From: Polaribacter gangjinensis
GTDB taxonomy: Bacteria; Bacteroidota; Bacteroidia; Flavobacteriales; Flavobacteriaceae
Length of the DNA: 64,000 nt
Assembly: GCF_038024125.1 (NCBI RefSeq)
Contig: NZ_CP150662.1
Location: 203,501-267,500, forward strand
Direction: 5' to 3'
Shown: in pieces, positions 11,916-43,958 of the stretch
Numbering within the stretch: the first letter of the stretch is position 1
Layout: each line of letters begins with the position of its first letter
Notes under the pieces: generated by a model
The model's input: only the letters and a program-made list of their open reading frames with translations
Databases searched by the model: none
Told to the model about the DNA's origin: nothing
Program-made: the position numbers and the translations under genes

Positions 11916-12331
11916 TTTTTACATTTCTATTTTTACAATAATTTAAAATCAAAATTATAACTTAATAAATGTAATATCTTGAATAAGCCATAAATTTATC
12001 AAATGATAAAATAGTAGAAAGTTTTGTTGACTAAAAGCAGTATAAATTATAAGTAGAATAGAATTGTGTATGAATATCAACGTTGTTGTATAAAATTTAT
12101 TAAAAGTACAGTTCCAAATTTCATTTAAATCTTCAACAGTTTTTTTGATTAGTTGAAATTTAGTTATTCATTCGTTTTTTTTTATTTCAACTCCTTTAGA
12201 TTTTGTTCCCATTCAAAGTCGTGCGCAATTCAACTATCTCTACTAATTTTGTAATTCTGAACAAAATAAGAAGCTAGCAAATGAGCAACTAACATTGGTT
12301 TTTTTATAAAACTAACAATCTTTATACACGG
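11916..12331. other. AT-rich spacer with degenerate terminal cassette site
   Basis: No ORF. A site-like start (AACGTTGTTGTATAA) lies at 12079 and a site-like right arm (TTTATACACGG) at 12321, abutting the insertion element. The spacing between them is about twice that of other sites, so this end of the array is decayed or carries a small insertion. Confidence 0.45.
12079..12331. repeat. Cassette site S1 (degenerate, split by IS110 copy 1)
   Basis: The left arm TTGTATAAAATTTATT and right arm TTTATACACGG are site-like, and the GTT end continues beyond the IS at 13622. GTTAGCATTT there is complementary to AATGCTAAC at 14218-14226, the other end of the 117-aa cassette, which identifies this as that cassette's site. 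Confidence 0.45.
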
Positions 12332-12375
12332 CTTAAGTTTACAATTCATAAATTTAAACAATAATCAGAAAGAAT

Positions 12376-12514
12376 AAAAGAGAGAATTAAGGTTAGTATA
12401 CACGGTGAAGCTAGAACTTCGACAACATTGATAATCCTCTCTCTTTTCTACTAAAAATCACGTTCAGTTCTGTGAGACCTAGATCTCGATTTCAAGTTGT
12501 TGTGATTCTAGTAG
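12376..12514 (+). ncRNA. Predicted bridge RNA of IS110 copy 1
   Basis: Two consecutive stem-loops precede the transposase. Stem 1 pairs AAAAGAGAG (12376) with CTCTCTTTT (12439); its loop holds TATACACGG (12397-12405), identical to the right arm of the cassette site occupied by this copy. Stem 2 pairs CTACTA/AATCAC with GTGATT/TAGTAG; its loop holds CAGTTCT (12465-12471), identical to the element's own right end. This is the target-loop/donor-loop layout of IS110 bridge RNAs. Confidence 0.7.
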
Positions 12515-12539
12515 TTTATTCTTTCATAAATCATTAGTT

Positions 12540-13508
12540 ATGAGTAAATATAAAGAAACTTTTGGAATTGACATCAGTAAAGATGTATTTGATTGTTATG
12601 GAAGTGTTCAGGGTCACTTACAATTTAACAATACAGAAAAAGGATTTCTAAAGTTTCAAAAGATTTTAGGAGAAAACAGTTTAGTTATCATGGAGGCTAC
12701 AGGCTATTACCATTATCGTTTAGCACAGTTTTTGTATCACAATGATCAAGATGTTTCAGTAGTAAATCCTTTGTCAGTAAAGCGTTTTATACAAATGCGA
12801 TTAGCAAAAGTTAAAACCGATAAAAGTGATTCAAAAGCGATTTGTGAGTATGGTCTAATCAATGAAGTTCCATTATACACAGCTCTCAACGAAGCTCAGA
12901 GTGAGTGTTTACAGTTATTTCGTTTGATGGATAGTTTACTAAAAAATCGAACAGCCAAAATGAATAAGATTCATGGCGAGGAGATTTTAGGGATTCCTTC
13001 AAAATATGTGTATAGTTCTTTAAAACGAGTTAAAAAACAGTTAGATAAAGAAATCACAGGGATAGAGCAGAAGCTACTTTCTTTAGTAAAACAAGACCAG
13101 CAAGTTCAATTAACCTTACTTCAAAGTATTCCTGGTATTGGAGTTAAAACAGCATTATTTTTAATAGTAGTAACAGATGGATTTAAAAAGTTTGAGAATG
13201 CTTCACAACTGTGCAGCTATGTGGGCATCACACCAACCATAAGAGAATCTGGCAGTAGTGTAAGAGCAAGAAGTAGAATAAGTAAGGTTGGAAACAGGAA
13301 ACTACGCAACTTATTGTTTTTATGTTCCTTTAGTGCTTGTAAGCAAAATAAGGCTTGCAGAGAAATTTACGAGCGAATCACAAACAAAGGTAAAAGTAAA
13401 AAGTTGGCATTAATAGCAGTATCAAATAAGCTGTTAAAACAGGCATTTGCTATTGCAAAATCTGGAAATCCTTACGAAGAAAGTTTTGTATCAGTAATGC
13501 CTAAATAA
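12540..13508 (+). CDS. IS110-family DEDD transposase (copy 1)
   Basis: 322 residues. The N-terminal RuvC-like domain carries Asp11 (FGIDISKD), Glu52 (IMEATGYY), Asp94 and Asp97 (KTDKSDSKA). The C-terminal Tnp domain has SIPGIGVKTA (helix-hairpin-helix-like) and the Ser-rich RESGSSVR (237-240) that contains the catalytic Ser, followed by GNRKLRN. These recombinases insert guided by a bridge RNA from their own non-coding end. The protein is identical to that of the second copy, implying recent transposition. Confidence 0.95.
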   Translation: MSKYKETFGIDISKDVFDCYGSVQGHLQFNNTEKGFLKFQKILGENSLVIMEATGYYHYRLAQFLYHNDQDVSVVNPLSVKRFIQMRLAKVKTDKSDSKAICEYGLINEVPLYTALNEAQSECLQLFRLMDSLLKNRTAKMNKIHGEEILGIPSKYVYSSLKRVKKQLDKEITGIEQKLLSLVKQDQQVQLTLLQSIPGIGVKTALFLIVVTDGFKKFENASQLCSYVGITPTIRESGSSVRARSRISKVGNRKLRNLLFLCSFSACKQNKACREIYERITNKGKSKKLALIAVSNKLLKQAFAIAKSGNPYEESFVSVMPK

Positions 13509-13620
13509 GTAGGTTTTAAATAAAAAAAATGATGGTTTAAAGGGTGAAAGCTACTTGTAAGCTTAGATAAATATTGCAGAAAAATTATTGAAAAATTGTT
13601 TGTTTTTTAACTCAGTTCTT

Positions 13621-13859
13621 TGTTAGCATTTCGTTGTTTTTTTAAATTATGATTTTGTTCTTAATTTCTTAAATTTTCTTTAAAAGTCAATTCTGACAGA
13701 CAATTTTTCACAATTTGTAAATTCTAACAAACAATTTAACTCCAAATTCAATTCCCACAAACACTAAATTCTGACAGATTCAATTCTGACTTTTTACTTT
13801 TTTGTAGATTTATTTCATTTAAATTTTCGTTTTTTATTCTTTTCCTACAACTTCCTTCT
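13621..13859. other. Non-coding 3' part of cassette with short repeats
   Basis: AT-rich, no ORF. ATTCTGACAG and close variants (ATTCTAACAAAC, ATTCTGAC) recur at least four times between 13690 and 13790. It begins with the GTT end of site S1. Confidence 0.4.
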
Positions 13860-14213
13860 TCAATTTTCTTTATTGTCCAATTCAATAATTTCAACGGATA
13901 TTGTCTTTTCTCTTATAGTTTCTGGCGGGTTTTCTTCTCCCCAACTGTGACATTCGAGAGTCAGTTTAGAATTCTCAATAAAAATTAAAAATCCAACTTC
14001 AATGTTGTCCGCACGTCCGAATAAAGTTGGCTCTGAAATAGCCCTTCTATCTTTTGGAAGTATATCATTAGTTAATTCAAGGAAATATCCTGCGCCCGTA
14101 AAATTATATCCTGTAATTGGACTATTCAAAATAGAATTCAATTCTTCATTACTGAACCTATCTCTCAACATTAGATTAAATACTTCTATTTCGTAATTGG
14201 TTAATTTCATCAT
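13860..14213 (-). CDS. Hypothetical cassette protein (117 aa)
   Basis: I start it at the ATG at 14213 because the longer frame to 14258 would run through the cassette site. No family recognised. The protein is acidic, starts MMKLTNYEIEVFNLML and has no signal peptide or membrane segment; a helical N-terminus is followed by predicted beta strands (ADNIEVGFLIFIENSKLTLE). Outermost recognisable cassette, with its site S1 broken by the IS110 copy. Confidence 0.6.
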   Translation of the reverse strand: MMKLTNYEIEVFNLMLRDRFSNEELNSILNSPITGYNFTGAGYFLELTNDILPKDRRAISEPTLFGRADNIEVGFLIFIENSKLTLECHSWGEENPPETIREKTISVEIIELDNKEN

Positions 14214-14223
14214 AATGAATGCT

Positions 14224-14347
14224 AACGTTTTGTATATGAAAAGTAGCAGAATAAACATACGATTATATTTAGTTTATAAGTTAAAATAGCAGAAAAGTAT
14301 AAGCCTTTAAAATTTACACTTAACTGCTATTTTTTATATACTTGGTT
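14224..14347. repeat. Cassette site S2 (attC-like)
   Basis: Arms TGTATATGAAAAGTAGCAG and CTGCTATTTTTTATATAC pair with two G-T wobbles on the plus strand. The GTTGTGGTTTGTATT end is complementary to the AATATAAACCACAAC end at 16451. Closely related to S9, which also follows a lipoprotein-toxin-like cassette. Confidence 0.85.
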
Positions 14348-14359
14348 GTGGTTTGTATT

Positions 14360-14746
14360 TTAATCTATTTCATATCTTGGCTCTAATTTTGTAAATTCTT
14401 TTCCTTTAACCAAAAAAATTATGTATTTATCCAAAAATTGATTTAACTTCCAATCATCTTTTTTACCTTTTTTATTATAAATATCTTTCTTTTTTAAAAA
14501 TTTCTTTAGACATTTAATTTTTTTATGTTTCAAATTATTATATTTTTTCTGTTCCAATAAATATACAAGACCATTATTACCAGTCCCTTTTATTCTATAA
14601 GAAAATTCATTATTATTTGGGTCTTGCCATTTTTTTAATAATAAATTATCGTTGTAATTAATAAATAATGTATCTCTTTTTTGTCCATAAATTGAACTAC
14701 TAGAAGATATAATAAGTATAATAAATAATATAAATGATTTTTTCAT
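14360..14746 (-). CDS. Small secreted protein, candidate immunity partner
   Basis: 128 residues with a signal peptide (FILFIILIISSSSSIYGQ), then a very Lys-rich mature part (KKFLKKKDIYNKKGKKDD). No family recognised. It starts 2 bases after the stop of the 532-aa metallopeptidase-like lipoprotein in the same cassette, so the two are almost certainly co-expressed. An exported inhibitor of an exported toxin is a reasonable inference. Confidence 0.6.
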   Translation of the reverse strand: MKKSFILFIILIISSSSSIYGQKRDTLFINYNDNLLLKKWQDPNNNEFSYRIKGTGNNGLVYLLEQKKYNNLKHKKIKCLKKFLKKKDIYNKKGKKDDWKLNQFLDKYIIFLVKGKEFTKLEPRYEID

Positions 14747-14748
14747 AA

Positions 14749-16347
14749 TTACTCTGGGCAGTTTTTTGTGGTACTATGATAGTAAAGGTTTAAACTATTT
14801 GTTAATTCAGCTTTTTTGGAAATTGATAAGTCAGTGTAAGGTTTCACATTATGTTCTTTTAATCCTTGCCAAGCTAATGCTTCATAAAAACTATCAGGTA
14901 ATGGGTTTGCTCCATTATTTGTAAGGTAATTGTAGTCTCCAACCAAAACATCTTTGTGGAAACTTTTTAAAGCATCTCTCATAGATGTAACATATAGCTC
15001 CCCCATTGTGTTATGTTGCTTTTCTATTTCGTATTTTTCGTATGTTGTTTTAAAATCTAAATCTCCATTTGTTGGATACTTTGTGTTTAATTTACTGAAA
15101 ATGTCTGCATGAATATATTCATGAATTAGAGTTCTAACAGCACCTAAAGCAGGCATATTGGAAAATTTGTCAGTACTAATATTGATTTCTATAATACCAT
15201 TAATAGGTTCTATAGTTTTTCCATTTAATTCAATACTTGTTCCGTTTCTATAAACTTTATCTTCAGATTTTATTTTAATATCAAATTCGGAATCTCCTTG
15301 AAACTTTCTTAAAATATCTTTTATAAAAGAATCACCTTTTTTGTCTAAATGGTAGTTTAAGCACTTTGCTTTCCCCGTAAGTTCATTAATAATTTTATCC
15401 TCTTCGACACAAGTACCCAAAACTGGGTCGTATACATAACCCTCACCACATTCAATAGGGTTTACAGATATCACATATTTACAAGGATTGCTTTCTTCTA
15501 CATATCTACCTTGATAATTTTTATTGCTATTTGACTGACAATCTTGATATGCAGGACTATTTCCTGGGTTTGTATAATAACCACCAGAATTACCACCACC
15601 ACCAATATTTAAATCTGGTAACCAATAAGACTCACAAATAGTTTCTGTACTTGTCCCATTAAATGTCGTACTAACATATGTATAAGGACCATTACCCCAT
15701 TTAATATAATTGTCAGTGTAATGATATGTTGTAACAGTATAGCAATCTTGCATCATTCTACTTTGATAATTATCTTTAGGTTTTTTCTTTTTAAATTCTT
15801 TATTAAAAAAAATATTTTCGTCTTTTTTACCGTTTTCAATTTTTTCAGCATATACTATTTCTCCTTCATTGTTTAGAATATGGTTTAAACCATATGAGAT
15901 TTCTTCTTCAAATAAAATGTTTTTCTCTTTTAGTTTTTTCTTATTTATATTTTCAGTATAAGATTTATAAATGTAAAAAGAGTGTTCTTGATTTTCGTTC
16001 TCAACTACAAAAACTTTATAAATAGTTGAATATTTACTAACATTTATAGTTTTAAAATTGTTAGGATTGAAAGAATTAGTGAAATTGATAGGAAATTCGT
16101 AATAATATATTTCTAATTCTTTATGATATTTTTTGTTTTCATTATTCCAAAGTACCTCAAATTCATAAGGTATTGCTTTTTTGAAACTTTCAGCATTAAA
16201 TTCGCTTTGAAGTTTGGATAATAAGTTGCTCTGATCTGGATTAGAAGTAAATTCATCTTTTTCACAATTCCATAGTAATAAAGAAACTCCAAAGAATAGA
16301 ATTCCTATTTTTAAAAGATTAGTAATTTTGTTTTTTTTGTTTTTCAT
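14749..16347 (-). CDS. Secreted lipoprotein with zinc-metallopeptidase motif
   Basis: 532 residues. A lipoprotein signal (FFGVSLLLWNC, lipid Cys28) is followed by acidic EKDEF, likely a surface-export signal. The middle is Tyr/Asn/Gly rich (WLPDLNIGGGGNSGG). The C-terminal region has HEYIH at 409-413 (HExxH zinc site) followed by TMGELYVTSMRDAL. The N-terminus is clearly related to the 643-aa protein encoded at 29038-30969 although the C-termini differ, as in polymorphic toxins. The function as toxin is inferred. Confidence 0.65.
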   Translation of the reverse strand: MKNKKNKITNLLKIGILFFGVSLLLWNCEKDEFTSNPDQSNLLSKLQSEFNAESFKKAIPYEFEVLWNNENKKYHKELEIYYYEFPINFTNSFNPNNFKTINVSKYSTIYKVFVVENENQEHSFYIYKSYTENINKKKLKEKNILFEEEISYGLNHILNNEGEIVYAEKIENGKKDENIFFNKEFKKKKPKDNYQSRMMQDCYTVTTYHYTDNYIKWGNGPYTYVSTTFNGTSTETICESYWLPDLNIGGGGNSGGYYTNPGNSPAYQDCQSNSNKNYQGRYVEESNPCKYVISVNPIECGEGYVYDPVLGTCVEEDKIINELTGKAKCLNYHLDKKGDSFIKDILRKFQGDSEFDIKIKSEDKVYRNGTSIELNGKTIEPINGIIEINISTDKFSNMPALGAVRTLIHEYIHADIFSKLNTKYPTNGDLDFKTTYEKYEIEKQHNTMGELYVTSMRDALKSFHKDVLVGDYNYLTNNGANPLPDSFYEALAWQGLKEHNVKPYTDLSISKKAELTNSLNLYYHSTTKNCPE

Positions 16348-16448
16348 TTTGGTTAAATTTATAAATTAATATTCAATTTTAGTAGTTTAACTAGTTGCAA
16401 TTTTTTGATTTTTTAATTCAGCTAGTAATTTGGTCAAATATAAACCAC

Positions 16449-16571
16449 AACGGTCTCGGCTATGAGTAGTTGCGTGGGTTAGCACTTAACTTTGCAAGTA
16501 CGCATCAAACTGAAAATCCGTGAGGATTTTCAGAAGTAGGCGTGAACAAGCAATTACTTATAGCCATTGTT
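16449..16571. repeat. Cassette site S3 (attC-like, duplicated as S5)
   Basis: Arms GGCTATGAGTAGTTGC and GCAATTACTTATAGCC pair with two G-T wobbles on the plus strand; the centre carries GAAAATCCGTGAGGATTTTC. It belongs to the 187-aa gene cassette; GTTGTAAAAC is complementary to GTTTTACAAC at 17207. Confidence 0.9.
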
Positions 16572-17207
16572 GTAAAACGTTTTTTATTCCGTTAAAATCG
16601 ATATCCAATTCTTAAATGTAAATTCAAAGCAGCTTCTCCTTCATTTTCTAAATATCCGACACTTTTAGCGAAAATATACCTGTATCCAACTCCAATTCCA
16701 GTTTCGTATGTAAAATGGTTTCCAATATTTCGTCTAATTCCCCAAGTTGGTATTATGGAAATTTGGTCAGCTACTTCTACATTATCATAATTTGAAATTA
16801 CAAACCAATTCGGATTGTAGCTTGTCTGTAATGTTAAAAAATTCCCACTGTTCCCACCAATATTTCTCGATTTAGATACTCTTTTGTTAAGGTTATAATA
16901 CCATCTAGGTTCTAATCTAATTACAGGTGTCATTAAATATCCATTTTCAGGATAGAAACTTCCGCCCCAAAAACCAGCATCCATTCCGATTTCTGCTCTT
17001 AAAGCTATTTGATTTGATAATTTCGTTTCTTTATGAGCCCAAATTCCTAAAACTCCTGTTTGTATTCCGTAGGTAGATTGTTCTACACTTGCGGTTTGTG
17101 ATTTCGCAATTAAAGTCAGTCCGCAAAATGTCAAGGTCAATAAGATTTTTTTCATTCAGTTTATTTTTTGTTATTAAGTTTATTTTTTAGTCAAAATGTT
17201 TTACAAC
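16452..17207 (-). mobile_element. Duplicated cassette, copy A
   Basis: Unit = 187-aa gene plus downstream site S3. It matches 19690-20445 with one difference noticed (GAACAAG here, GAATAAG there). Identity starts and stops at the AAC/GTT junctions on both sides, and the upstream sites differ (S4 here, S6 there). Confidence 0.85.
16592..17155 (-). CDS. Outer-membrane beta-barrel protein (cassette copy A)
   Basis: 187 residues with a signal peptide (LLTLTFCGLTLIAKSQ) and a barrel-like pattern ending in LHLRIGYRF. Resembles small Bacteroidota porin-like/outer-membrane family proteins; the exact role is unknown. The protein is identical to the copy at 19830-20393, and the surrounding 756-bp unit including its downstream site is also duplicated. 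Confidence 0.75.
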   Translation of the reverse strand: MKKILLTLTFCGLTLIAKSQTASVEQSTYGIQTGVLGIWAHKETKLSNQIALRAEIGMDAGFWGGSFYPENGYLMTPVIRLEPRWYYNLNKRVSKSRNIGGNSGNFLTLQTSYNPNWFVISNYDNVEVADQISIIPTWGIRRNIGNHFTYETGIGVGYRYIFAKSVGYLENEGEAALNLHLRIGYRF

Positions 17208-17328
17208 GTTTTGGCGCTTGGCGCAGTGGCGGATTTCGGGGCACAAAACTGTCAATACACCACAAAAGTTGATGTGAGGTAGAATGTTCAATTAACCACG
17301 TCACCCGCCATTGCGCCAAACGCCTGTT
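17205..17328. repeat. Cassette site S4 (attC-like, GC-rich variant)
   Basis: Arms GGCGCAGTGGCGG and CCGCCATTGCGCC pair with one G-T wobble on the plus strand. GTTAGCAGTAGGCTT is complementary to AGCTTACTGCTAAC at 19689. The composition differs strongly from its neighbours, suggesting its cassette came from another genome. Confidence 0.85.
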
Positions 17329-17342
17329 AGCAGTAGGCTTTT

Positions 17343-18251
17343 TTAGTTTAAGATTCTATATTCCATTGGTGTTTTACCGGTCTTTTGTTTAAAAAGTTTA
17401 TTGAAGTATTGTGGATATTCAAAACCTAAATTAAATGCAATTTCGCTAATATTTTTGTCGGAATTTAAGAGCAAACCTTTTGCTTCTTCAATAAGGTAAT
17501 AATGAATGTGTTCTTGTGCATTTTTGCCTGTTTCCTTTTTTAATAGGTCACTTAAATAACTGGGCGATAAATGAAGCTTGTCGGCTAAGAACTTAACAGT
17601 TGGCAATCCTTGTTCTTCTACTTTTGTTTTCGCAAAATACTCTGTCAGTATTGTTTCTATTTGGGAAATTGTTGATTTGTTGGCTTGGCTTCTTGTAATC
17701 ATTTGTCTGCCATAAAATCTTGAACAATAGTTTAGTAATAATTCTATTGTTGAAACAATAATATATTGGCTATGTACATCAATATTCTCTTGAAGTTCTA
17801 TTTGTATTTTTTGAATACATTCAAAAAGAATATTTTTTTCCTTGTCCGAAAGATGAAGTGCTTCAGAAACTTCGTAATGGAAAAAGCTATAACTCTTTAT
17901 TTTGTCATTTAAAGTGGTGGAGCGAATTAGGTCGGGATGAAAAAATAAACCCCAACCCATTATGTCTTCTCTTTCTTCTACTTCATTATCTATTTCTATG
18001 GTTTGATTGGGTGCTATACAAATTAAATTTCCGTCTTGAAAATCTATCGTTTTTCTCCCGTATTTAATATTATTCTTGCAATAGTTCTTGAACATAATTG
18101 AATAGAAATCGGTAGTGATTTTAGAATTATGCTCTAATTGCTCTGTAACTTTGCTAAAATCTAAAACAGTTACCAATGGATGGTAACTGTTTCCTATGTT
18201 AAACAACTTATGTAAATCTGTGATATTTTGAAGGTGTATTAGTTCTTTCAT
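17343..18251 (-). CDS. AraC-family transcriptional regulator
   Basis: 302 residues. The C-terminal AraC/XylS DNA-binding domain has two HTH units (LSPSYLSDLLKKETGKNAQEH, then ISEIAFNLGFEYPQYFNKLF). The N-terminal half is a sensor domain of cupin-like length. Its stop faces site S4; its ATG overlaps the stop of the 165-aa membrane protein by 4 bases (ATGA), so it is co-transcribed with it and with the short-chain dehydrogenase, which it may regulate. Confidence 0.85.
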   Translation of the reverse strand: MKELIHLQNITDLHKLFNIGNSYHPLVTVLDFSKVTEQLEHNSKITTDFYSIMFKNYCKNNIKYGRKTIDFQDGNLICIAPNQTIEIDNEVEEREDIMGWGLFFHPDLIRSTTLNDKIKSYSFFHYEVSEALHLSDKEKNILFECIQKIQIELQENIDVHSQYIIVSTIELLLNYCSRFYGRQMITRSQANKSTISQIETILTEYFAKTKVEEQGLPTVKFLADKLHLSPSYLSDLLKKETGKNAQEHIHYYLIEEAKGLLLNSDKNISEIAFNLGFEYPQYFNKLFKQKTGKTPMEYRILN

Positions 18252-18745
18252 AATTTTTCAGAGAATTCCGTTAAGTATTCCATATAATGATGCCCACGTC
18301 TTTCTGCAAAGAAATCTAAACATAATACAATGCTGGCTTGAATGAACAAGCCAAGTCCTATTCCTCTCCAAAATGTATCATTCATAGAACTATACATAAG
18401 TGTTATGCCTAAAATAATCAATGCTATTTCAGCGTATCTAAAAATCACAAAATTACTCATTACTTTTTCCATTCGAGGAATTTCAAGCGTTTTTATACTT
18501 TGTGGTTCTTTTTTGATGAAAGTTTCAACTCGTGTAATGTCTTTTGGACTTCTTGTTACAATTGTAAATCCTACTATAAATTCAAGTAATGCAACAATTA
18601 TAAAAGGAATAGCAACCCCTTTCCAAAATGAGGATTTCAACGCAAAAATGAAATAGAGAGCCATTGCCAATGCAATGACTCCTATTAAAATGAAAATATA
18701 GCTTTCGGCTTTTTCTCCATTAAAGTATTTTACAACTGGATTCAT
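18248..18745 (-). CDS. Four-helix integral membrane protein
   Basis: 165 residues with four hydrophobic stretches (about residues 14-32, 36-58, 95-120 and 125-145). No family recognised with certainty; it resembles small hypothetical proteins found next to AraC regulators and dehydrogenases. Second gene of a three-gene cassette operon; 11 bases separate it from the upstream dehydrogenase. Confidence 0.65.
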   Translation of the reverse strand: MNPVVKYFNGEKAESYIFILIGVIALAMALYFIFALKSSFWKGVAIPFIIVALLEFIVGFTIVTRSPKDITRVETFIKKEPQSIKTLEIPRMEKVMSNFVIFRYAEIALIILGITLMYSSMNDTFWRGIGLGLFIQASIVLCLDFFAERRGHHYMEYLTEFSEKL

Positions 18746-18756
18746 ATTAGGATGTT

Positions 18757-19572: not shown

Positions 19573-19686
19573 TTCTTATGATTTTAAAATTATGGTGCAA
19601 AATTCACAAGAAACATTAGTTGCCTGATAATACAAATTCAGGTTGTTTGTATTCTTTTTACGGATTGTCGGTCTAAGCTTACTGCT

Positions 19687-19809
19687 AACGGTCTCGGCTA
19701 TGAGTAGTTGCGTGGGTTAGCACTTAACTTTGCAAGTACGCATCAAACTGAAAATCCGTGAGGATTTTCAGAAGTAGGCGTGAATAAGCAATTACTTATA
19801 GCCATTGTT
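19687..19809. repeat. Cassette site S5 (attC-like, copy of S3)
   Basis: Same arms and centre as S3, with one difference noticed. Its GTTGTAAAAC is complementary to GTTTTACAAC at 20445. Confidence 0.9.
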
Positions 19810-20561: not shown

Positions 20562-20605
20562 CTTAAGTTTACAATTCATAAATTTAAACAATAATCAGAA
20601 AGAAT

Positions 20606-20755
20606 AAAAGAGAGAATTAAGGTTAGTATACACGGTGAAGCTAGAACTTCGACAATCCCGAAACTTCGGGAATAATCCTCTCTCTTTTCTACTAAAAATC
20701 ACGTTCAGTTCTGTGAGACCTAGATCTCGATTTCAAGTTGTTGTGATTCTAGTAG
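20606..20755 (+). ncRNA. Predicted bridge RNA of IS110 copy 2 (altered target loop)
   Basis: Same two stem-loops as copy 1: TATACACGG at 20627-20635 in loop 1 and CAGTTCT at 20706-20712 in loop 2. The right side of loop 1, expected to pair with the right half of the target, is replaced by a 16-base palindrome, so targeting may be changed or lost. Confidence 0.6.
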
Positions 20756-20780
20756 TTTATTCTTTCATAAATCATTAGTT

Positions 20781-21749
20781 ATGAGTAAATATAAAGAAAC
20801 TTTTGGAATTGACATCAGTAAAGATGTATTTGATTGTTATGGAAGTGTTCAGGGTCACTTACAATTTAACAATACAGAAAAAGGATTTCTAAAGTTTCAA
20901 AAGATTTTAGGAGAAAACAGTTTAGTTATCATGGAGGCTACAGGCTATTACCATTATCGTTTAGCACAGTTTTTGTATCACAATGATCAAGATGTTTCAG
21001 TAGTAAATCCTTTGTCAGTAAAGCGTTTTATACAAATGCGATTAGCAAAAGTTAAAACCGATAAAAGTGATTCAAAAGCGATTTGTGAGTATGGTCTAAT
21101 CAATGAAGTTCCATTATACACAGCTCTCAACGAAGCTCAGAGTGAGTGTTTACAGTTATTTCGTTTGATGGATAGTTTACTAAAAAATCGAACAGCCAAA
21201 ATGAATAAGATTCATGGCGAGGAGATTTTAGGGATTCCTTCAAAATATGTGTATAGTTCTTTAAAACGAGTTAAAAAACAGTTAGATAAAGAAATCACAG
21301 GGATAGAGCAGAAGCTACTTTCTTTAGTAAAACAAGACCAGCAAGTTCAATTAACCTTACTTCAAAGTATTCCTGGTATTGGAGTTAAAACAGCATTATT
21401 TTTAATAGTAGTAACAGATGGATTTAAAAAGTTTGAGAATGCTTCACAACTGTGCAGCTATGTGGGCATCACACCAACCATAAGAGAATCTGGCAGTAGT
21501 GTAAGAGCAAGAAGTAGAATAAGTAAGGTTGGAAACAGGAAACTACGCAACTTATTGTTTTTATGTTCCTTTAGTGCTTGTAAGCAAAATAAGGCTTGCA
21601 GAGAAATTTACGAGCGAATCACAAACAAAGGTAAAAGTAAAAAGTTGGCATTAATAGCAGTATCAAATAAGCTGTTAAAACAGGCATTTGCTATTGCAAA
21701 ATCTGGAAATCCTTACGAAGAAAGTTTTGTATCAGTAATGCCTAAATAA
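20781..21749 (+). CDS. IS110-family DEDD transposase (copy 2)
   Basis: 322 residues, identical in protein sequence to copy 1 (Asp11, Glu52, Asp94, Asp97 and the RESGSSVR serine motif all intact). Full length and probably active, unless the palindrome in its guide RNA impairs it. Confidence 0.95.
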   Translation: MSKYKETFGIDISKDVFDCYGSVQGHLQFNNTEKGFLKFQKILGENSLVIMEATGYYHYRLAQFLYHNDQDVSVVNPLSVKRFIQMRLAKVKTDKSDSKAICEYGLINEVPLYTALNEAQSECLQLFRLMDSLLKNRTAKMNKIHGEEILGIPSKYVYSSLKRVKKQLDKEITGIEQKLLSLVKQDQQVQLTLLQSIPGIGVKTALFLIVVTDGFKKFENASQLCSYVGITPTIRESGSSVRARSRISKVGNRKLRNLLFLCSFSACKQNKACREIYERITNKGKSKKLALIAVSNKLLKQAFAIAKSGNPYEESFVSVMPK

Positions 21750-21877
21750 GTAGGTTTTAAATAAAAAAAATGATGGTTTAAAGGGTGAAAGCTACTTGTA
21801 AGCTTAGATAAATATTGCAGAAAAATTATTGAAAAATTGTTTGTTTTTTAACTCAGTTCTTTGTTAGGCATAGTTTT

Positions 21878-22591: not shown

Positions 22592-22716
22592 AACGGTTTG
22601 CGTGTATGAGAAGTAGCGGATTAAAAAGCACTTCACTTACGGGCTGGCACAGACTTTTATTAAAAGTAAAGACCTTTGATTTAGCACTTAACCCGCTATT
22701 TCTTATAAACGCTGTT
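22592..22716. repeat. Cassette site S7 (attC-like)
   Basis: Arms GTGTATGAGAAGTAGCGG and CCGCTATTTCTTATAAAC; GTTATGGGC is complementary to GCCCATAAC at 24504. Same subtype as S16 (shared AAAAGCACTTCACT centre). Confidence 0.9.
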
Positions 22717-24318: not shown

Positions 24319-24501
24319 ATTTATAAATTATTTTTTTCCTACTCCTTTGGCTTTTCGGTTCTGCCCCGTTTTTTAAAGTTGTTTCTGGTCTCAACTTTTT
24401 TCTTTTTTACAAAATATGTTTTAGGAACTATCAAAGTTTTCCTTTGGCGGTTCTTTTGTCTGTCTTTTTCCGTTTGGTTGTCTTTTCATAAACTTGCCCA
24501 T

Positions 24502-24627
24502 AACGGTTCTCAGCTATACGCAGGCAGGGATTTTAAACACTGAACTTCCTACGAAGAACTGAACTTTAAATTTACCACTTTCCTGTCCTACGAAGCACGA
24601 AACCCCTGCTTGCGTATAGGTGATGTT
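24502..24627. repeat. Cassette site S8 (attC-like)
   Basis: Arms CTATACGCAGGCAGGG and CCCTGCTTGCGTATAG pair with one G-T wobble on the plus strand. GTTGTGCCTT is complementary to GAGGCACAAC at 28597, so S8 closes the DarT/helicase cassette. Confidence 0.88.
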
Positions 24628-28594: not shown

Positions 28595-28718
28595 AACGTA
28601 GTTGTGTATGAAAAGTAGCAGAGTAAAATTGTGATTACTTTCGATTTTGCAATAAAGATAGCAGACAAGTACAAACCTTGTAGTTTGCACTTAACTGCTA
28701 TTTTTTATACACGTGGTT
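28595..28718. repeat. Cassette site S9 (attC-like)
   Basis: Arms TGTGTATGAAAAGTAGCAG and CTGCTATTTTTTATACACG; GTTGTGGTTTGTAT is complementary to ATATAAACCACAAC at 31069. Same subtype as S2. Confidence 0.9.
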
Positions 28719-31066: not shown

Positions 31067-31190
31067 AACGTTGTTGTATAAGATTAGTTGCGTGTTTTAA
31101 GTACTAAAGTTAGCAAATAAATCACAGATAGAAAGTCCGCGAGGACTTTCGTAAATTGGCTAAAACTAGCAATTAATTTTATACGGTGTT
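31067..31190. repeat. Cassette site S10 (attC-like)
   Basis: Arms TGTATAAGATTAGTTGC and GCAATTAATTTTATACG pair with two G-T wobbles on the plus strand; centre GAAAGTCCGCGAGGACTTTC. GTTAGCCAC is complementary to GTGGCTAAC at 31932. Confidence 0.92.
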
Positions 31191-31929: not shown

Positions 31930-32055
31930 AACGTGTTTGTACAAAATTAGTTGCGTGGTTAAAGCACTAAAGTTAGTAAATAATAACTGACGAAGAAAAT
32001 CCGCGAGGATTTTCGTAAGTAAGCAAAAAGCAAGCAATTAATTTTGTACGGTGTT
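31930..32055. repeat. Cassette site S11 (attC-like)
   Basis: Arms TGTACAAAATTAGTTGC and GCAATTAATTTTGTACG; centre GAAAATCCGCGAGGATTTTC. GTTGTAGGTA is complementary to TACCTACAAC at 32610. Confidence 0.92.
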
Positions 32056-32607: not shown

Positions 32608-32733
32608 AACGTGTTTGTACAAGATTAGTTGCTGTGTTTAAGTAATAAATTTACTAAATAATTACTGACAAAGAAAATCCGCGAGGATTTTCGTAAGTAA
32701 GCCAAAAGCAAGCAATTAATTTTGTACGGTGTT
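32608..32733. repeat. Cassette site S12 (attC-like)
   Basis: Arms TGTACAAGATTAGTTGC and GCAATTAATTTTGTACG, two inner G-T wobbles on the plus strand. GTTGGGTAAC is complementary to GTTACCCAAC at 33462. Shares its centre with S10, S11 and S15. Confidence 0.93.
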
Positions 32734-33459: not shown

Positions 33460-33585
33460 AACGTGTTTGTGTTATGAAAAGTTGCGTATTTGACAACGAG
33501 GAATTTCCAACGGAAATTCTGAAGTTGGCAAAGAAGCAACAACTTTTGGGTAAGCTAAAAATAGCAATTTTTTATACACGGTGTT
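33460..33585. repeat. Cassette site S13 (attC-like)
   Basis: Arms TGTTATGAAAAGTTGC and GCAATTTTTTATACACG, with a bulged T on the left arm. GTTGTACGTA is complementary to TACGTACAAC at 34209. Centre GACAACGAGGAATTTCC is shared only with S14. Confidence 0.9.
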
Positions 33586-34206: not shown

Positions 34207-34332
34207 AACGTTTATGTATAAAGAAAGTTGCGGTTTTGACAACGAGGAATTTCCGAAGGAAATTCAGAAGTTGGCAAAAATGCAACTACCTTTGGTGAAG
34301 CTAAAAATAAGCAATTTTTTTTATACGGTGTT
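34207..34332. repeat. Cassette site S14 (attC-like)
   Basis: Arms TGTATAAAGAAAGTTGC and GCAATTTTTTTTATAC. GTTAGCCACTG is complementary to GTGGCTAAC at 35074 and has the same end sequence as S10, whose cassette carries the paralogous gene. Confidence 0.9.
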
Positions 34333-35071: not shown

Positions 35072-35195
35072 AACGGTTTTGTGTATGATTAGTGGCGTGT
35101 TTAAGCACCTAATTTAGCAAATAAAAATCGAATAGAAAATCCGCGAGGATTTTCGTAAGTAGGCGATAACCAAGCCATTAATTATACACGGTGTT
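35072..35195. repeat. Cassette site S15 (attC-like)
   Basis: Arms TGTGTATGATTAGTGGC and GCCATTAATTATACACG, three plus-strand wobble pairs. GTTGGCAATA is complementary to TATTGCCAAC at 35778. Confidence 0.92.
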
Positions 35196-35738: not shown

Positions 35739-35775
35739 TTCGTTTAGAGTTCGAGTCTGTTTTTAAATTATTGCC

Positions 35776-35900
35776 AACGTTTCGCGTGTATGAGAAGTAG
35801 CGGATTAAAAAGCACTTCACTATCAGTTTGGCACTGACTTTTATTAAAAGCACCGACCTTTGATTTAACACTAAACCCGCTATTTCTTATACACGCTGTT
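35776..35900. repeat. Cassette site S16 (attC-like)
   Basis: The best stem in the array: 20 consecutive pairs, GCGTGTATGAGAAGTAGCGG with CCGCTATTTCTTATACACGC, two of them G-T on the plus strand. GTTGTGCGT is complementary to ACGCACAAC at 40568, closing the restriction-modification cassette. Confidence 0.95.
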
Positions 35901-35929
35901 GTGCGTTCGGTGTTCTTTTTCGGTCGTCT

Positions 35930-36327: not shown

Positions 36328-36337
36328 TTTCAAATAA

Positions 36338-39103: not shown

Positions 39104-39117
39104 TTCAGGTAATTCAA

Positions 39118-40035
39118 TTAATAAATTGCTGGACTTGCTTTTGCCTTTCCGTTTTTGTAATTAAGTGTATGATATTTTGCAATTGGCTCATTGAATAATC
39201 TTAAAGTTGATTCTTCAATTTCCTTGCGTTTAAGTGTTTCTTGAATTCTGTCAGTGCAAATTTTTATGTAATCAACTGGCTTAACTTTATGTAGCAGAAC
39301 ATCTTCATTCTTTTCAATCCCAATAAATTGTCTGTTTTCAAGAATTGCAGAAAGTAGGAAACTACCACTACCACAAGCATTGTCAAGAACAACATCTCCT
39401 GGTTTTGTGAAGGTCTTTATAAGGTATCTTCCTAATTCAATTGGTTTTTGTGTCGGATGCAAAACAGGCCCTTCGGATTCCGCTGTTTTCACATATACAA
39501 AATCGTCAATGGGTTGTTCTTCATAGCAAACAACATCATTCGGGTATCTCTCACCATTGCTTTTTACGTGTTTTGGTTTAAAATCTCCGTAACTACCTGT
39601 AAATTGGTCTTTTCTAATACCTTTGTCGTATGCCTCTCCGTTCGTCATCTGAGGATTGTATGATGGTTGTTTTTTATAAAAAAGACAGATGTCCTCGTGT
39701 TTACGAAGTGGCTGTTTTTTTGCATTAAGGAAATTTGTTGATTTTGACTTAATCCAAACAATTTTGTATTTAAACAATTTTTCGTTGCTCATAATTAACT
39801 TAGCTGTAAAAAGTCCTTGTGAGGTCAAGGCTATTGCTCCATTATCTTTGATGATTCTCTCATAATGTTCCCACAGTTGGTCTAAATCAATCACGGAATC
39901 CCATTTGTTTTGTGTTGTTCCGTATGGTAAATCACAAAGAATCATATCTATTGACTTGCTTGGTATGTTTTTCATAACCTCTAAGCAGTCGCCTTGAATA
40001 ACTTTGTTAATATATTGGTCTATTGATTTTGCCAT
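39118..40035 (-). CDS. DNA methyltransferase (N4-cytosine/N6-adenine, beta class)
   Basis: 305 residues. Motif IV Asp35-Leu-Pro-Tyr38 (CDLPYGTTQNKWDS), then PLRKHEDICLFYKK, HPTQKP and motif I DNACGSGSFLLSA near the C-terminus: the order typical of beta-class enzymes. It lies 14 bases upstream of the fused enzyme and 3 bases after the XRE regulator, forming one operon; it probably gives additional protective modification. Confidence 0.88.
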   Translation of the reverse strand: MAKSIDQYINKVIQGDCLEVMKNIPSKSIDMILCDLPYGTTQNKWDSVIDLDQLWEHYERIIKDNGAIALTSQGLFTAKLIMSNEKLFKYKIVWIKSKSTNFLNAKKQPLRKHEDICLFYKKQPSYNPQMTNGEAYDKGIRKDQFTGSYGDFKPKHVKSNGERYPNDVVCYEEQPIDDFVYVKTAESEGPVLHPTQKPIELGRYLIKTFTKPGDVVLDNACGSGSFLLSAILENRQFIGIEKNEDVLLHKVKPVDYIKICTDRIQETLKRKEIEESTLRLFNEPIAKYHTLNYKNGKAKASPAIY

Positions 40036-40038
40036 TTT

Positions 40039-40365
40039 TTAAAATTTTAAATTTCCCTGTTTAAACTTAGACAACCTGTAATATTTTGCCTTTTCCTCTG
40101 CCAATGTCAACAATTCTGTTGAGTCTGGAACTCGGTAAATCATTTCAGCGATTTTTTCGCTGTAAAACTCCTTTTCAAGAGAAGTAATGTCAAGCTTGAA
40201 AACTTTAGCAAGTTTAGGAAGTATTTCCTCTGGAACATTGCGTTTTTTATTTTCAATCTTGGAAAGTGTTGATTGGTCTATATCAAGTGCTGCAGCAAGT
40301 TTTGTTAGCGTTAAGCCTTTCTCAACCCGCAAATTGTGAATGTATTCTCCAAATGTTTCTTTCAT
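40039..40365 (-). CDS. XRE-family HTH regulator (controller-like)
   Basis: 108 residues. The HTH is GEYIHNLRVEKGLTLTKLAAALDIDQSTLSKIENKKR, followed by a C-terminal extension. Placed first in the restriction-modification operon, as controller proteins are. A palindromic TTGACAATTTTGTCAA just upstream (near 40384-40399) could be its operator. Confidence 0.82.
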   Translation of the reverse strand: MKETFGEYIHNLRVEKGLTLTKLAAALDIDQSTLSKIENKKRNVPEEILPKLAKVFKLDITSLEKEFYSEKIAEMIYRVPDSTELLTLAEEKAKYYRLSKFKQGNLKF

Positions 40366-40383
40366 TACCTTGAATATTTTGCC

Positions 40384-40399
40384 TTGACAATTTTGTCAA
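40384..40399. promoter_or_regulatory. Candidate operator of the restriction-modification operon
   Basis: TTGACAATTTTGTCAA is a 16-base perfect palindrome about 20 bases before the regulator start codon, the usual place for a controller operator. Confidence 0.5.
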
Positions 40400-40460
40400 A
40401 AATACTAATATTTATCTACAATCAGAATTCTTGAGAAGTTTTTTTTAGCTACGGATTATG

Positions 40461-40552
40461 TCAGAGCGGTGGCAAAAAATGGCTCTTTTGGTTTTTTTAG
40501 CGTTGGCTCGTGTGTCGGCAAAAACCAAATGTGCCATTTGCGGGTCGGCTTT
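40461..40552. repeat. B element 4 (second palindrome family)
   Basis: Outer stem ATGGC / GCCAT, inner TTTTGGTTTTT / AAAAACCAAA, loop TAGCGTTGGCTCGTGTG. Lies between the restriction-modification operon and site S17. Confidence 0.75.
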
Positions 40553-40565
40553 TACACTGACGCAC

Positions 40566-40688
40566 AACGGTTAGTATATGAAAAGTAGGCGATTACGAAG
40601 AACGTCAGTTTCGGCTAAGCACAAAGTTTGATACGAGCTTTGAAGCTCAAATTTAGCACTGTCTCGCCTATTTTTTATATACATTGTT
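40566..40688. repeat. Cassette site S17 (attC-like)
   Basis: Arms GTATATGAAAAGTAGGCGA and TCGCCTATTTTTTATATAC, with two G-T wobbles on the plus strand; the centre is unique (GCTTTGAAGCTC palindrome). GTTGTAGCCA is complementary to TGGCTACAAC at 42171. Confidence 0.92.
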
Positions 40689-40701
40689 GTAGCCAGTTTT
40701 T

Positions 40702-41778
40702 CTATCGGATTATTTTTTTCATTATCCATTCTACAGGTCCATTTTCTCTACTTTTCAGCCAATAAGTTGCAAAGAATACACATAAAACACTAAAAATTAA
40801 AGCATACGCAACTGAAAATTCTATTGGATAATTCCCCATTTTTTCTGGGTTAATTGCTTCAATAAGTCCCATACCAATTATTACGTGTGCAACATAAAAA
40901 GTTAGAGCTAATTGTCCCGTTTTATTTAGAGCCAAAAGTATTTTGTTTGTTGAAAATCTTTTTCCGATAATGATACAAGCTGATATTATTAATACGGAAA
41001 TTGCAATACCATTAAACATATAAATTGGTAATGGTGGCATTGGGTTTGTTCCAATAATTTCTGATAATTCACTTGCTATTTGTTCGTTTCCTTCTGATAA
41101 AAATGAAATTGACACGTGTGATAAAATTTGAATTACAACAAAAGTAATTGAACTAACCAAAAATGCTTTTTTGATAAATCGGTCACTTTTCAAGTCTTGT
41201 TTGCCAAACCAAAAACCAAAAAGCATAAAAGCTGTCCAAGGTATTACTGGGTGAAAACCATTGAAGAATAGATTTCTAAAAAATCCATTAACTGTCCAAA
41301 AATCGAGATAATCTAAAGTGTCAAAATTCCAACCTGTTTCGTAATTCCAAAAGCCAATTAATAATGGATAAAACAGTATTAATGCAATTGCCGAAATTAA
41401 AATAGTTTTTTCATTGCTTTTTAGTAGAAGCAAAATAGCAAGCATATAAATTCCATAAAAATGCAAAATGTCCGCTGGCCAAATTACTATATATGAAAGA
41501 CCAACAATGAATAGGAACAATGCTCTTTTTGCAATTCTTATCCGAGCAGTTTTTAATTTTTGGCTGTCATTATTTTTCAATGCAGAATTTGTCATTAAAG
41601 CAAGTCCAACGCCTGCTAAAACCACAAAAGTTGCTGCTGCCTTTCCATCAAAAGCACTTGCAAATGATTTAACCCAACTCAATCCATTTTCGCCAAACAC
41701 GATTTTAAAATTAACGATTATCATTCCGATAACTGCTAATGCTCTTGCTATATCAATTCCGATTATTCTTTCTTTCAT
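40702..41778 (-). CDS. DUF418/heparan-acetyltransferase-like membrane protein
   Basis: 358 residues with about nine to ten hydrophobic helices. The N-terminus RIIGIDIARALAVIGMIIVNF matches the DUF1624/HGSNAT family start, and FYVAHVIIGMGLIEAI the DUF418 C-terminal signature. The family is thought to move acetyl or acyl groups across the membrane. Its ATG overlaps the stop of the lipocalin-like gene by 4 bases. Confidence 0.75.
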   Translation of the reverse strand: MKERIIGIDIARALAVIGMIIVNFKIVFGENGLSWVKSFASAFDGKAAATFVVLAGVGLALMTNSALKNNDSQKLKTARIRIAKRALFLFIVGLSYIVIWPADILHFYGIYMLAILLLLKSNEKTILISAIALILFYPLLIGFWNYETGWNFDTLDYLDFWTVNGFFRNLFFNGFHPVIPWTAFMLFGFWFGKQDLKSDRFIKKAFLVSSITFVVIQILSHVSISFLSEGNEQIASELSEIIGTNPMPPLPIYMFNGIAISVLIISACIIIGKRFSTNKILLALNKTGQLALTFYVAHVIIGMGLIEAINPEKMGNYPIEFSVAYALIFSVLCVFFATYWLKSRENGPVEWIMKKIIR

Positions 41779-42152
41779 TTTTCTGCCAGAAATTTAAGTT
41801 TTATACTGTCTTCATTGTCTTTTAATAAAAGAATGAGTTCATTCTTTGTCACTTTAATTATTCCAAATATTATTGGTTTGTTTGATTTGCTATCGCATAA
41901 ATGAAGTGATTTATTTTTTAAATCCCATTTCCAAGTTCCGTTTTCCAATTTTCCTTCATCAACACTAATAAATGTTCCATCTTCTATAAAATTCAAATAG
42001 TCATTTTTTTCTGTCTCTTCGGGAGAAAAGGTAATTCCCCAATAAATATATCCTTCCAAATTCCATTTTTTACAGAAATCAAGTTTAGATTGACTTTTTG
42101 CATTTATACTTAAAGCTAAAATCGTTATTGTAATTGTAAATATCCTGTTCAT
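41775..42152 (-). CDS. Secreted lipocalin-like protein
   Basis: 125 residues with a signal peptide (ITITILALSINAKSQ). KWNLEGYIYWG..., LNFIEDGTFISVDEGKLENGTWKWD and a run of short strands match Bacteroidota lipocalin-like (DUF4488/5004-type) proteins. First gene of a two-gene cassette; ligand unknown. Confidence 0.68.
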   Translation of the reverse strand: MNRIFTITITILALSINAKSQSKLDFCKKWNLEGYIYWGITFSPEETEKNDYLNFIEDGTFISVDEGKLENGTWKWDLKNKSLHLCDSKSNKPIIFGIIKVTKNELILLLKDNEDSIKLKFLAEK

Positions 42153-42168
42153 TCTTAAAATTGGCTAC

Positions 42169-42291
42169 AACGTGTTTGTGCATGGTTTGGTGCGTAAATT
42201 AAGAAATAAAACTAATAAATAAAAACAAGATTATGAGTAAACAAAAATTTTCCAAAGTGGCTAAAAGTAGCACTAAATTATGCACGGTGTT
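42169..42291. repeat. Cassette site S18 (attC-like, first site after integrase)
   Basis: Arms TGTGCATGGTTTGGTGC and GCACTAAATTATGCACG differ only by plus-strand wobble pairs. GTTGGGCAAC is complementary to GTTGCCCAAC at 42752-42761 next to the integrase. Same subtype as S6. Confidence 0.92.
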
Positions 42292-42416
42292 GGGCAACGT
42301 TTTTTATAAAATCAAGGTTAAATATTATTTCCTTAAAGTAAAGTTACACCTTAAATTCAAAAGAAATGGAATACAAGTTCCTGTTTCTTTCTCAGAAAAA
42401 CAACTTAAAGAATTAA

Positions 42417-42734
42417 CTAAGGTTTAAAATCATTTGGATTGATTGATTCTATTTTTTCTCCATTCATAAAAAGTTTAATTTCTGATGGACTCCAAGCCAC
42501 AGCTATTTTGTTAAGTCCTTTTTCAGGTAAAATATTAGTTTTGAAAATTAAAAATTCATCATCAGTTCCAACAAAAATTTTAACACTTAAAGTCTGACCT
42601 ATGGAAGTAATAATTCCTTTATTGTCGTCAATTTCAAAATCTACCCAATTTATAAAATTAGGTTCTTTAAATGCTTTTGGATTTTCTTCAGTATCGAATG
42701 AAAAGAATACTGTTCCTTCTTTGTTTATTTTCAT
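42417..42734 (-). CDS. LamG/concanavalin-like small protein (105 aa)
   Basis: No signal peptide. KGLNKIAVAWSPSEIKLFMNGEKIE matches the conserved strand pair of LamG-type jelly-roll domains (W.....LY.NG). It may be a fragment of a larger carbohydrate- or protein-binding domain. First cassette behind the integrase. Confidence 0.6.
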   Translation of the reverse strand: MKINKEGTVFFSFDTEENPKAFKEPNFINWVDFEIDDNKGIITSIGQTLSVKIFVGTDDEFLIFKTNILPEKGLNKIAVAWSPSEIKLFMNGEKIESINPNDFKP

Positions 42735-42751
42735 AGGTTTATTTTTTAAAT

Positions 42752-42790
42752 GTTGCCCAACTGGTTATATCAAGAACAAAATTCTTTTTT
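42752..42790 (-). other. Candidate attI (primary integration site)
   Basis: On the minus strand, directly after the integrase stop, TTGATATAACCA precedes GTTGGGCAAC, the first cassette junction. Only one junction is present, with no long hairpin arms, as in integron attI; the bases before GTT resemble the sequence before the GTT in S17 (ATACTAACC). Confidence 0.6.
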
Positions 42791-43958
42791 ATATCGGATT
42801 ATTTCCGGATAATAGGAAGTTTTGTTCATCTTTTGTATTTCGGCTTAAAGTTAATAAAATTGTATCTAACGGACTCTTAATTTCTAATAAATCTTTTTTT
42901 GCAACATGAGTATAAATCATGGTAGTCTCTGGTTTAGCATGCCCTAACAACTCTTGTATATGTCGCAAACCAACACCATTCTCCAATAAATGAGTAGCAT
43001 AACTATGACGCAATGTATGTGGCGTTACTTTTTTCGAAATCTTTGCCAAAGCAACACTTTTCTCTAAAAATTTACGAATACTACTTTCAGAATATCGCTC
43101 TCCCTCAGGTCCTTCAATAAAATAAACTTTTGGTACATAGGTCGTTAAATAATTCATTAATAAAGGTAAAAACGAACTTGCCAATACAACAAACCTGTCT
43201 TTTCTCCCTTTGCCACTCACTACTTTTACTTGCCTACGCTCAACATCAATATTTTTTAATTGCAAACTGGTAATTTCCCCAATGCGCAATCCAGACGAAT
43301 ACAACAATACAATAATTGCGCGATGCTTTAAATTTTTTGTAACCTGTACAATCCGTAAAACTTCTTCTTGAGACAATACATTGGGCAATATTCTCGATTT
43401 TTTAGGACGCTCTAATTGCAAATCATTGATTTTTGTATGAGGATAAAAAACAGTAAAAACCTTCAATGCACTAATAAACTGTCTTTGCGAACTAATAGAA
43501 TACTTTCTGGGGATAAAAACCTTTTCAATAAAAACTTCTACAGATCTATTGGTAAGTTCTTCTAAAGCTGTTTCTGTATGAAAATTCACAAAATCTGCCA
43601 CAAAAAAAGTATACGTCTGTATCGTACTTTCACTATACCTTTTGCCTTTCAAATACAAGTAAAAATTATTCAATAACGTTCGTTGAGCCTCTGTTAAATT
43701 GCGCCTAAAAACCTCATTAGTGCCAATTTTTGATATATCTACAGTAGCAACATCCTTAAAAATAGCAATAATCGAAGCCAAATTCTCTTTCGTATCAGCT
43801 ACATGCCATACACGCAAGGTTTTGCTCCAAGTAGCTCCATCAATTTGCCGAACATGTTGAATCAGTAAAGAATCGTAAGGAAAACGAATCAAAAGCCTCG
43901 GATTTTTCTTATAAACCGCTTGCTCTAAAACAATAGTGGGTAGATTTTTCAATAGCAT
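42789..43958 (-). CDS. Tyrosine recombinase (XerC/D-type integrase of the cassette array)
   Basis: 389 residues. An N-terminal domain of about 80 residues (GATWSKTLRVWHV) precedes a SAM-like core-binding domain (about 88-180) and the catalytic domain, with Arg225 (SGLRIGE), Lys250 (SGKGRKD), His314-x-x-Arg317 (HTLRHSYATHLLE), His340 (LLGHAKPETT) and Tyr349 all present. I see no extra helix insertion near the second Arg, which defines classical IntI. It is transcribed in the same direction as the cassettes and lies at their upstream end, so it probably inserts and excises them. Confidence 0.88.
   Translation of the reverse strand: MLLKNLPTIVLEQAVYKKNPRLLIRFPYDSLLIQHVRQIDGATWSKTLRVWHVADTKENLASIIAIFKDVATVDISKIGTNEVFRRNLTEAQRTLLNNFYLYLKGKRYSESTIQTYTFFVADFVNFHTETALEELTNRSVEVFIEKVFIPRKYSISSQRQFISALKVFTVFYPHTKINDLQLERPKKSRILPNVLSQEEVLRIVQVTKNLKHRAIIVLLYSSGLRIGEITSLQLKNIDVERRQVKVVSGKGRKDRFVVLASSFLPLLMNYLTTYVPKVYFIEGPEGERYSESSIRKFLEKSVALAKISKKVTPHTLRHSYATHLLENGVGLRHIQELLGHAKPETTMIYTHVAKKDLLEIKSPLDTILLTLSRNTKDEQNFLLSGNNPI

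Follow-up and report, generated by a model that had tools for sequence, protein, structure and literature searches.

Our analysis of a window of 64 kb from the complete genome (2,937,607 bases) of the flavobacterium Polaribacter gangjinensis leads us to propose that positions 12079-42758 are very probably a tandem array of 18 gene cassettes with hairpin sites of the attC kind, captured or reshuffled by an adjacent tyrosine recombinase that does not carry the additional domain of the integron integrase IntI. Judged by its sequence, the array has the anatomy of an integron and, by IntI criteria, lies outside the IntI-type integrons. Since the tests for IntI (additional domain, clade membership and R-box consensus of the sites) failed, we would class it as an integron operated by a recombinase that lacks the IntI domain, and it seems that we are looking at a natural cassette system doing without that domain. 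A preliminary description of the same DNA had suggested an integron-like array beside an Xer-like tyrosine recombinase in a flavobacterium, and complementarity of the cassette ends, a cassette duplication, the fold of the sites and an attachment site (attI) behind the recombinase gene bear this out.

On the minus strand, each of eighteen gene units is followed by one of the sites S1-S18 (Table 1), and every site starts with AAC and ends with GTT. Sixteen sites are intact (123-126 nt), while S13 and S18 are each interrupted by an element of the IS110 family of insertion sequences (IS), whose transposase genes are the only plus-strand open reading frames (ORFs) above 110 aa within the array. As first described, the array thus holds some 18 units of nearly uniform minus-strand orientation, headed by a tyrosine recombinase with a candidate attI past its stop. 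The description of the sites as near-constant palindromes of 122-126 bp stands for the intact ones but not for the split S13 and S18, and the outer bases pair across the gene unit rather than within the repeat. An Rfam search of the window returned no family covering S1-S18.

It is this outer pairing that makes the cassettes, and not the repeats, the units of the array: the bases following GTT at the start of a unit agree with the reverse complement of those preceding AAC at its own end (153 of 180 positions), compared with a best value of 115/180 when partners were permuted 200,000 times, whereas the two flanks of one and the same repeat match at only 42 of 170. All 18 cassettes have a complementary end run of 6 or 7 bases, and in 15 of them base 8 sets A against G, a T.G wobble on the bottom strand. 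Related loci behave alike. Among their 90 sites 86 have a defined unit start and are testable (one of these starts in Ns); 74 of the 86 cassettes carry end runs of at least 6 bases and 704 of 860 positions match, the maximum of 20,000 permutations being 366. Such end pairing across the gene unit is that of circular cassettes. Moreover, C14 and C16 differ at a single one of their 756 positions (755/756), and since this identity spans exactly the stretch from the base after one GTT through the next GTT, with unrelated flanks on either side, we take the duplication for the trace of a cassette that moved as a unit. Three sites with an identical score (70.2 bits) in a related locus of Polaribacter sp. 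BM10 (L014:13688-19852) close equal-length units with the same ends, and these are likely cassette copies, too.

Our comparison of cassette turnover is one of DNA sequences across species and genera. Apart from IS, sites and short stretches, no cassette gene of the window recurs in the compared loci of other species or genera (blastn, E 1e-20), unlike single sites, which are up to 96.8% identical across genera (S16 versus L019). S14 and S16 are ~93-97% identical to sites in L019, L091 and L102 - the latter from another family - and the attached genes differ. It looks as if the sites travel or else stay under strong constraint. The cargo includes a restriction-modification cassette (C3) and one combining a helicase, DarT and an ADP-ribosylglycohydrolase (C11).

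The sites have the AAC/GTT crossover triplets, the palindromic single-strand fold and the preference for the bottom strand that characterise attC. Extended by its own cassette ends, each of the 16 intact sites is more stable as bottom than as top strand, and the consensus energies are -21.7 and -12.6, respectively. With the AAC/GTT stem included, 96.1% of 336 cells are paired, 14 of 21 stem pairs show double-sided changes and covariation reaches 0.480, while slid registers give at most 0.117 and never pair above 51.5%. The stems are set apart by a 5-to-1 asymmetric loop (about five bases on one arm, one on the other), and one G.T wobble on the bottom strand is conserved in 16/16. Folding potential and covariation are thus features of the sites themselves; folding in the cell is our prediction. 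The R box RYYYAAC/GTTRRRY is not matched, T occupying the second position after GTT in 10 of 18 sites, in agreement with the earlier remark that the sites do not read as standard GTTRRRY throughout. Could they simply be static intergenic hairpin repeats, REP-like elements or terminators that never move? They are intergenic, they fold and some occur elsewhere in the genome, but complementarity that spans gene units rather than repeats, a duplication running exactly from GTT to GTT, the single direction of the sites together with an attI, and the invariant bottom-strand wobble make this scarcely credible.

The recombinase aligns to the IntI profile TIGR02249 with 203.7 bits (cut-off 265) in two stretches that skip ~60 model positions, and the alignment with VchIntIA (2a3v) leaves out the same place. 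Counted from the alignment, the KDR and HTLRH motifs are 61-62 residues apart in 40/40 array-type recombinases, 103 in 14/14 IntI (all from Bacteroidota) and 65-69 in four Xer; 36 of the 40 adjoin sites that are detected by R1 (a covariance model made from the bottom strands of the 16 intact window sites), and L017, L059, L064 and L065 have no site in the short stretch covered. The recombinase lacks the IntI additional domain of ~42 residues. R225, K250, H314, R317, H340 and Y349 are invariant in 16/16 recombinases and presumably fill the catalytic roles of RKHRH plus Tyr. Our 72-row tree unites the 14 IntI in one clade (100/100) with no array recombinase inside it and separates Xer from array rows (100/100), so that the array recombinases lie outside both clades yet group with IntI apart from Xer. 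No firm branching order emerges among the array, class-level and IntI groups, so that the tree is compatible with an ancestral lack as well as with a secondary loss of the domain. A similar grouping was seen by Smyshlyaev et al. 2021 (PMC8138268) for their integron-like subgroup of tyrosine recombinases, with which we can compare by description: there, the insertion is tied to integron function, and in the passages on this subgroup no member without it is credited with a cassette array. A second recombinase type (~270-345 bits to our A3 profile) can likewise head arrays of these sites, as observed in L087-L096, L104 and L105.

In line with the preliminary description, which saw no classical IntI, the recombinase stays below the 265-bit cut-off and no IntI above it was found in the complete genome, where all 7 first-look candidates were scored. 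As to the proposed XerC/D type, score and fold are Xer-like, and the protein sits outside the Xer clade. Best fold matches of its AlphaFold model (mean pLDDT 78.1, pTM 0.50) are XerA and archaeal Xer followed by IntI 2a3v, and the fold search gave no assignment for the N-terminal domain. Among the best 120 of 7974 relatives, those named by their source are called XerD, integrase or tyrosine-type recombinase. This Xer-likeness invites another explanation, namely that the chromosomal Xer pair moves the cassettes via the sites, as it does with pdif modules, and that the adjoining recombinase is incidental. The genome does hold two other Xer-like genes. However, the Xer genes form a clade of their own, so that membership in the dimer-resolution clade of Xer/dif does not extend to the array recombinase, the sites are ~124-nt hairpins, all but one of 90 sites in relatives lie downstream of the array recombinase, and attI is conserved past its stop, all of which leaves a purely Xer-driven array very unlikely.

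Within attI, GTT begins at 42761, 28 nt beyond the stop codon of the recombinase gene, which is the place adjacent to the integrase gene where attI is to be expected. The core ATAA-N3-GTT recurs no more than ~60 nt past the recombinase stop in 21 of 23 loci, the sequences diverging immediately beyond it. Ahead of the core, 16 of 21 related loci (not this window) have a TAnnTTTG box, compared to 192 of 9200 random 36-nt windows. The loci are related to one another, and the box, which has the form of the Bacteroidetes -7 motif, might belong to a Pc promoter of the cassettes or may instead bind the recombinase. By eye, L090 and L092, which have the second recombinase type, show a perfect palindrome before the GTT of attI.

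With IntI-type integrons (TIGR02249, VchIntIA 2a3v) the array shares tandem co-directional cassettes, an attI beside the integrase gene, the AAC/GTT triplet, palindromic sites with a stabler bottom strand, scattered integrase-less clusters and the complementarity of cassette ends. It differs in a recombinase outside the IntI clade, without the ~42-residue insertion, under the profile cut-off and with an N-terminal extension of ~90 residues, in end pairing over 6-7 bases past AAC with the wobble at base 8 in place of GTTRRRY, and in the 5-to-1 loop.

How widespread are sites and recombinase? In the genome searches a share of the first-look candidates was scored (150 of 4321 for the host genome; per genome 11 for R1 in the family, 17 for R1 in the class, 5 for IntI in the phylum and 6 for the recombinase in the family), so that genome and site counts are lower bounds. 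In the 2.94-Mb host genome R1 finds at least 27 matches with 17 within the array, and as 16 of these 17 were model input, independent support comes from the related loci L001-L022. There, 89 of 90 matches (E up to 0.1) are downstream of the recombinase, which is the neighbourhood of integrase and sites that the preliminary description had proposed to look for in flavobacteria. At least one site is present in 17 of the 22 loci and the contig ends within ~500 nt in four of the other five, so the genomic partners do not point to an unrelated element; L002 has one site, L020 none. Another 19 family genomes contributed 20 stretches, in which all 203 R1 sites lie downstream and, by eye, in the direction of the recombinase; direction weighs more than position here because the stretches extend further downstream than upstream. 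The same is true for 12/12 sites in 19 short loci (that of L066 repeats an already counted stretch). Altogether, at least 251 of 299 family genomes have an R1 match (E 1e-5) and at least 185 of the same 299 a recombinase relative (E 1e-60); in the class, at least 134 of 198 genomes match R1.

Given the resemblance of the sites to attC, one may ask whether this is a canonical array served in trans by a true IntI encoded elsewhere, i.e. a CALIN (sites without an integrase). IntI above cut-off does occur in at least 105 of 395 genomes of the phylum, and Polaribacter phage P12002L has sites described as CALIN; of two attC tested, one was a substrate for IntI1, as bottom strand only (Qi et al. 2023, PMC9892861). 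The phage has 5 R1 matches, and two of them flank the methyltransferase gp54. The tested attC may be other sites than these, and the experiment suggests, rather than proves, that sites of this type are active. Against an IntI acting in trans stand the complete host genome with no IntI above cut-off, the conserved attI past the stop of the array recombinase and the sampled distribution (hand counts, with scores for up to 5 candidates in each genome): IntI in 1 of 98 genomes of this class and 0 of 49 of this order, yet R1 across the family as given above. We therefore regard this scenario as highly improbable. An integron in the phylum that we take to be called by its IntI profile, and to belong to another class, is that of Salinibacter ruber M1. 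IntegronFinder 2.0 lists it as complete and reports one complete integron for Bacteroidetes proper (PMC9024848). Our literature search, with subscription papers and preprints mostly outside its scope, found no paper describing a cassette system like the present one.

Several points weigh against our proposal that the adjacent recombinase runs this array. No cassette movement was observed, and the evidence consists of sequence traces. According to published statements, the IntI domain is necessary (Ghaly et al. 2022, PMC9668308) or essential (PMC8138268). We looked in the 16 intact sites for a constant extrahelical base and found none, the bulge at column 14 being filled in 3/16. The attI core is absent in L002 and L020, both with an intact recombinase gene, while L015 and L021 retain the core beside broken recombinase genes; and the cell's own Xer proteins could contribute. 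Furthermore, 10 of the 27 R1 matches of the genome are away from the array in small clusters, several with decayed ends, which partly agrees with the caveat in the preliminary description that repeats occurring genome-wide away from such integrases would argue against an integron; the other 17 are in the array. For these scattered sites, the upstream GTT has a six-base mate in 3 of 5 lead units, and among 5 inner units there is a single run of 7 and, after a shift by one, a single match over 11 bases, the other three units failing. Finally, R1 matches occur outside the class (at least 35 of 98 and at least 22 of 80 genomes), some in genomes with IntI, and L129 encodes a true IntI at a distance of ~4 kb from its R1 sites, albeit not at their attI side. 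Sites alone, due to this co-occurrence, do not prove which enzyme acts on them.

One scattered cluster (L143:2140-5423, ~673.6-676.9 kb of the host genome) has three sites away from the recombinase and ORFs that by eye are TIR-domain-like and nucleotidyltransferase-like, so possibly it carries defence cargo. The matches outside the class rule out R1 as a marker of IntI-less genomes only. Nineteen further stretches were searched, all with R1 sites (L138 repeats L130, and L120/L137 and L135/L136 overlap); recombinase ORFs are present in six, of which five lack the domain (a 156-aa piece among them) and the sixth, in L129, is an IntI. In L120-L137, from other classes and families of the phylum, R1-like arrays adjoin recombinases without the IntI domain, which point away from the array in L121 and L137 and towards it in L126 and L136. 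No R1 match appeared in 15 short IntI loci or in two E. coli stretches, a weak negative as these IntI loci reach only ~1.5 kb, and seven IntI stretches of 19-20 kb (L110-L116) contained one weak match.

If the adjacent recombinase does run the array, the following scenario may be envisaged. The bottom strand of each ~124-nt site would fold into a hairpin. The recombinase would bind this hairpin and cut it at or beside the invariant GTT/AAC, a position suggested by the cassette boundaries. The circular cassette would then join at attI directly past the recombinase stop, the place indicated by conservation, making C1 the newest cassette, and the chromosome would in this way gain or lose cargo such as the restriction-modification cassette C3 or the DarT cassette C11. 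What we infer in this scheme is that the reaction is the work of the adjacent recombinase, which strand it uses and where precisely it cuts.

S13 and S18 are interrupted at the same point of the site by two near-identical elements of the IS110 family, and the genome search turned up no further copies of these; their transposase is above the cut-off for the IS110 model NF033542, and an IS relative in L091 likewise ends at an R1 site. Insertion at a fixed point of the site and a DEDD-type transposase targeting one end of attC are shared with the IS1111-attC group (PMC11187229), unlike which the window elements belong to the IS110 family and target this new type of site.

Table 1. Coordinates (window numbering) of the recombinase gene, attI and the 18 cassettes with their sites.
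Feature	Position	Strand	Content
Array recombinase, 389 aa tyrosine recombinase	42789-43958	-	SAM_4 and catalytic domains; lacks the additional domain of IntI; ~90 aa N-terminal extension
attI, ...TTCTTGATATAACCAGTT immediately 3' of recombinase stop	42759-42788	-	core ATAA-N3-GTT, conserved in related loci
Cassette C1	42169-42758	-	gene 42417-42734; site S1 42169-42291
Cassette C2	40566-42168	-	lipocalin-like and DUF418 membrane protein; site S2 40566-40688
Cassette C3	35776-40565	-	helix-turn-helix (HTH) regulator, N6/N4 methylase, type IIG-like restriction-modification enzyme, small gene; site S3 35776-35900
Cassette C4	35072-35775	-	site S4 35072-35195
Cassette C5	34207-35071	-	META domain and Por secretion tail; site S5 34207-34332
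Cassette C6	33460-34206	-	site S6 33460-33585
Cassette C7	32608-33459	-	site S7 32608-32733
Cassette C8	31930-32607	-	site S8 31930-32055
Cassette C9	31067-31929	-	gene is paralogue of C5 gene; site S9 31067-31190
Cassette C10	28595-31066	-	643 aa protein and 102 aa ORF; site S10 28595-28718
Cassette C11	24502-28594	-	UvrD-like helicase, DarT, ADP-ribosylglycohydrolase; site S11 24502-24627
Cassette C12	22592-24501	-	352 aa gene, 105 aa gene; DUF805 RNA ahead of 352 aa gene; site S12 22592-22716
Cassette C13	20443-22591	-	Rce1-like protease; site S13 21865-20443, IS110 element ~20565-21867, transposase 20781-21749 (+)
Cassette C14	19687-20442	-	187 aa gene; site S14 19687-19809; near-identical to C16
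Cassette C15	17205-19686	-	short-chain dehydrogenase, 165 aa protein, AraC regulator; site S15 17205-17328
Cassette C16	16449-17204	-	second copy of C14; site S16 16449-16571
Cassette C17	14224-16448	-	532 aa and 128 aa genes; site S17 14224-14347
Cassette C18	12079-14223	-	132 aa gene; site S18 13624-12079, IS110 element ~12335-13630, transposase 12540-13508 (+)

As for further features of the window, C12 brings its own regulatory RNA, the DUF805 RNA (Rfam RF03081, 77.7 bits) at 24332-24400 (-). Beside the array, a 2899-aa repetitive protein with near-identical internal repeats (45236-53935, -) adjoins a 331-aa gene that is PorP/SprF-like by eye and gliding or secretion related. A Flavo-1 small RNA (Rfam RF01705, 51.9 bits) lies at 9025-9099 (-), and a tRNA scan of the window found none.

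Taking the distribution of sites and recombinases further, Bacteroidota could harbour a second, phylum-wide lineage of integrons whose recombinases never had the IntI domain and which would be living relatives of proto-integrons. We put this forward tentatively and with slightly more doubt than belief. If true, it would mean that single-strand cassette recombination needs no IntI domain, and that a class thought to be nearly free of integrons is full of them. Integrons are recognised by the IntI domain, and a family-wide system without it would explain why this class appears to lack them (1 of 98 genomes). It would also bring to light a large, so far hidden stock of mobile cassettes among the flavobacteria and make the origin of integrons testable, that is, whether the folded site or the extra domain came first.

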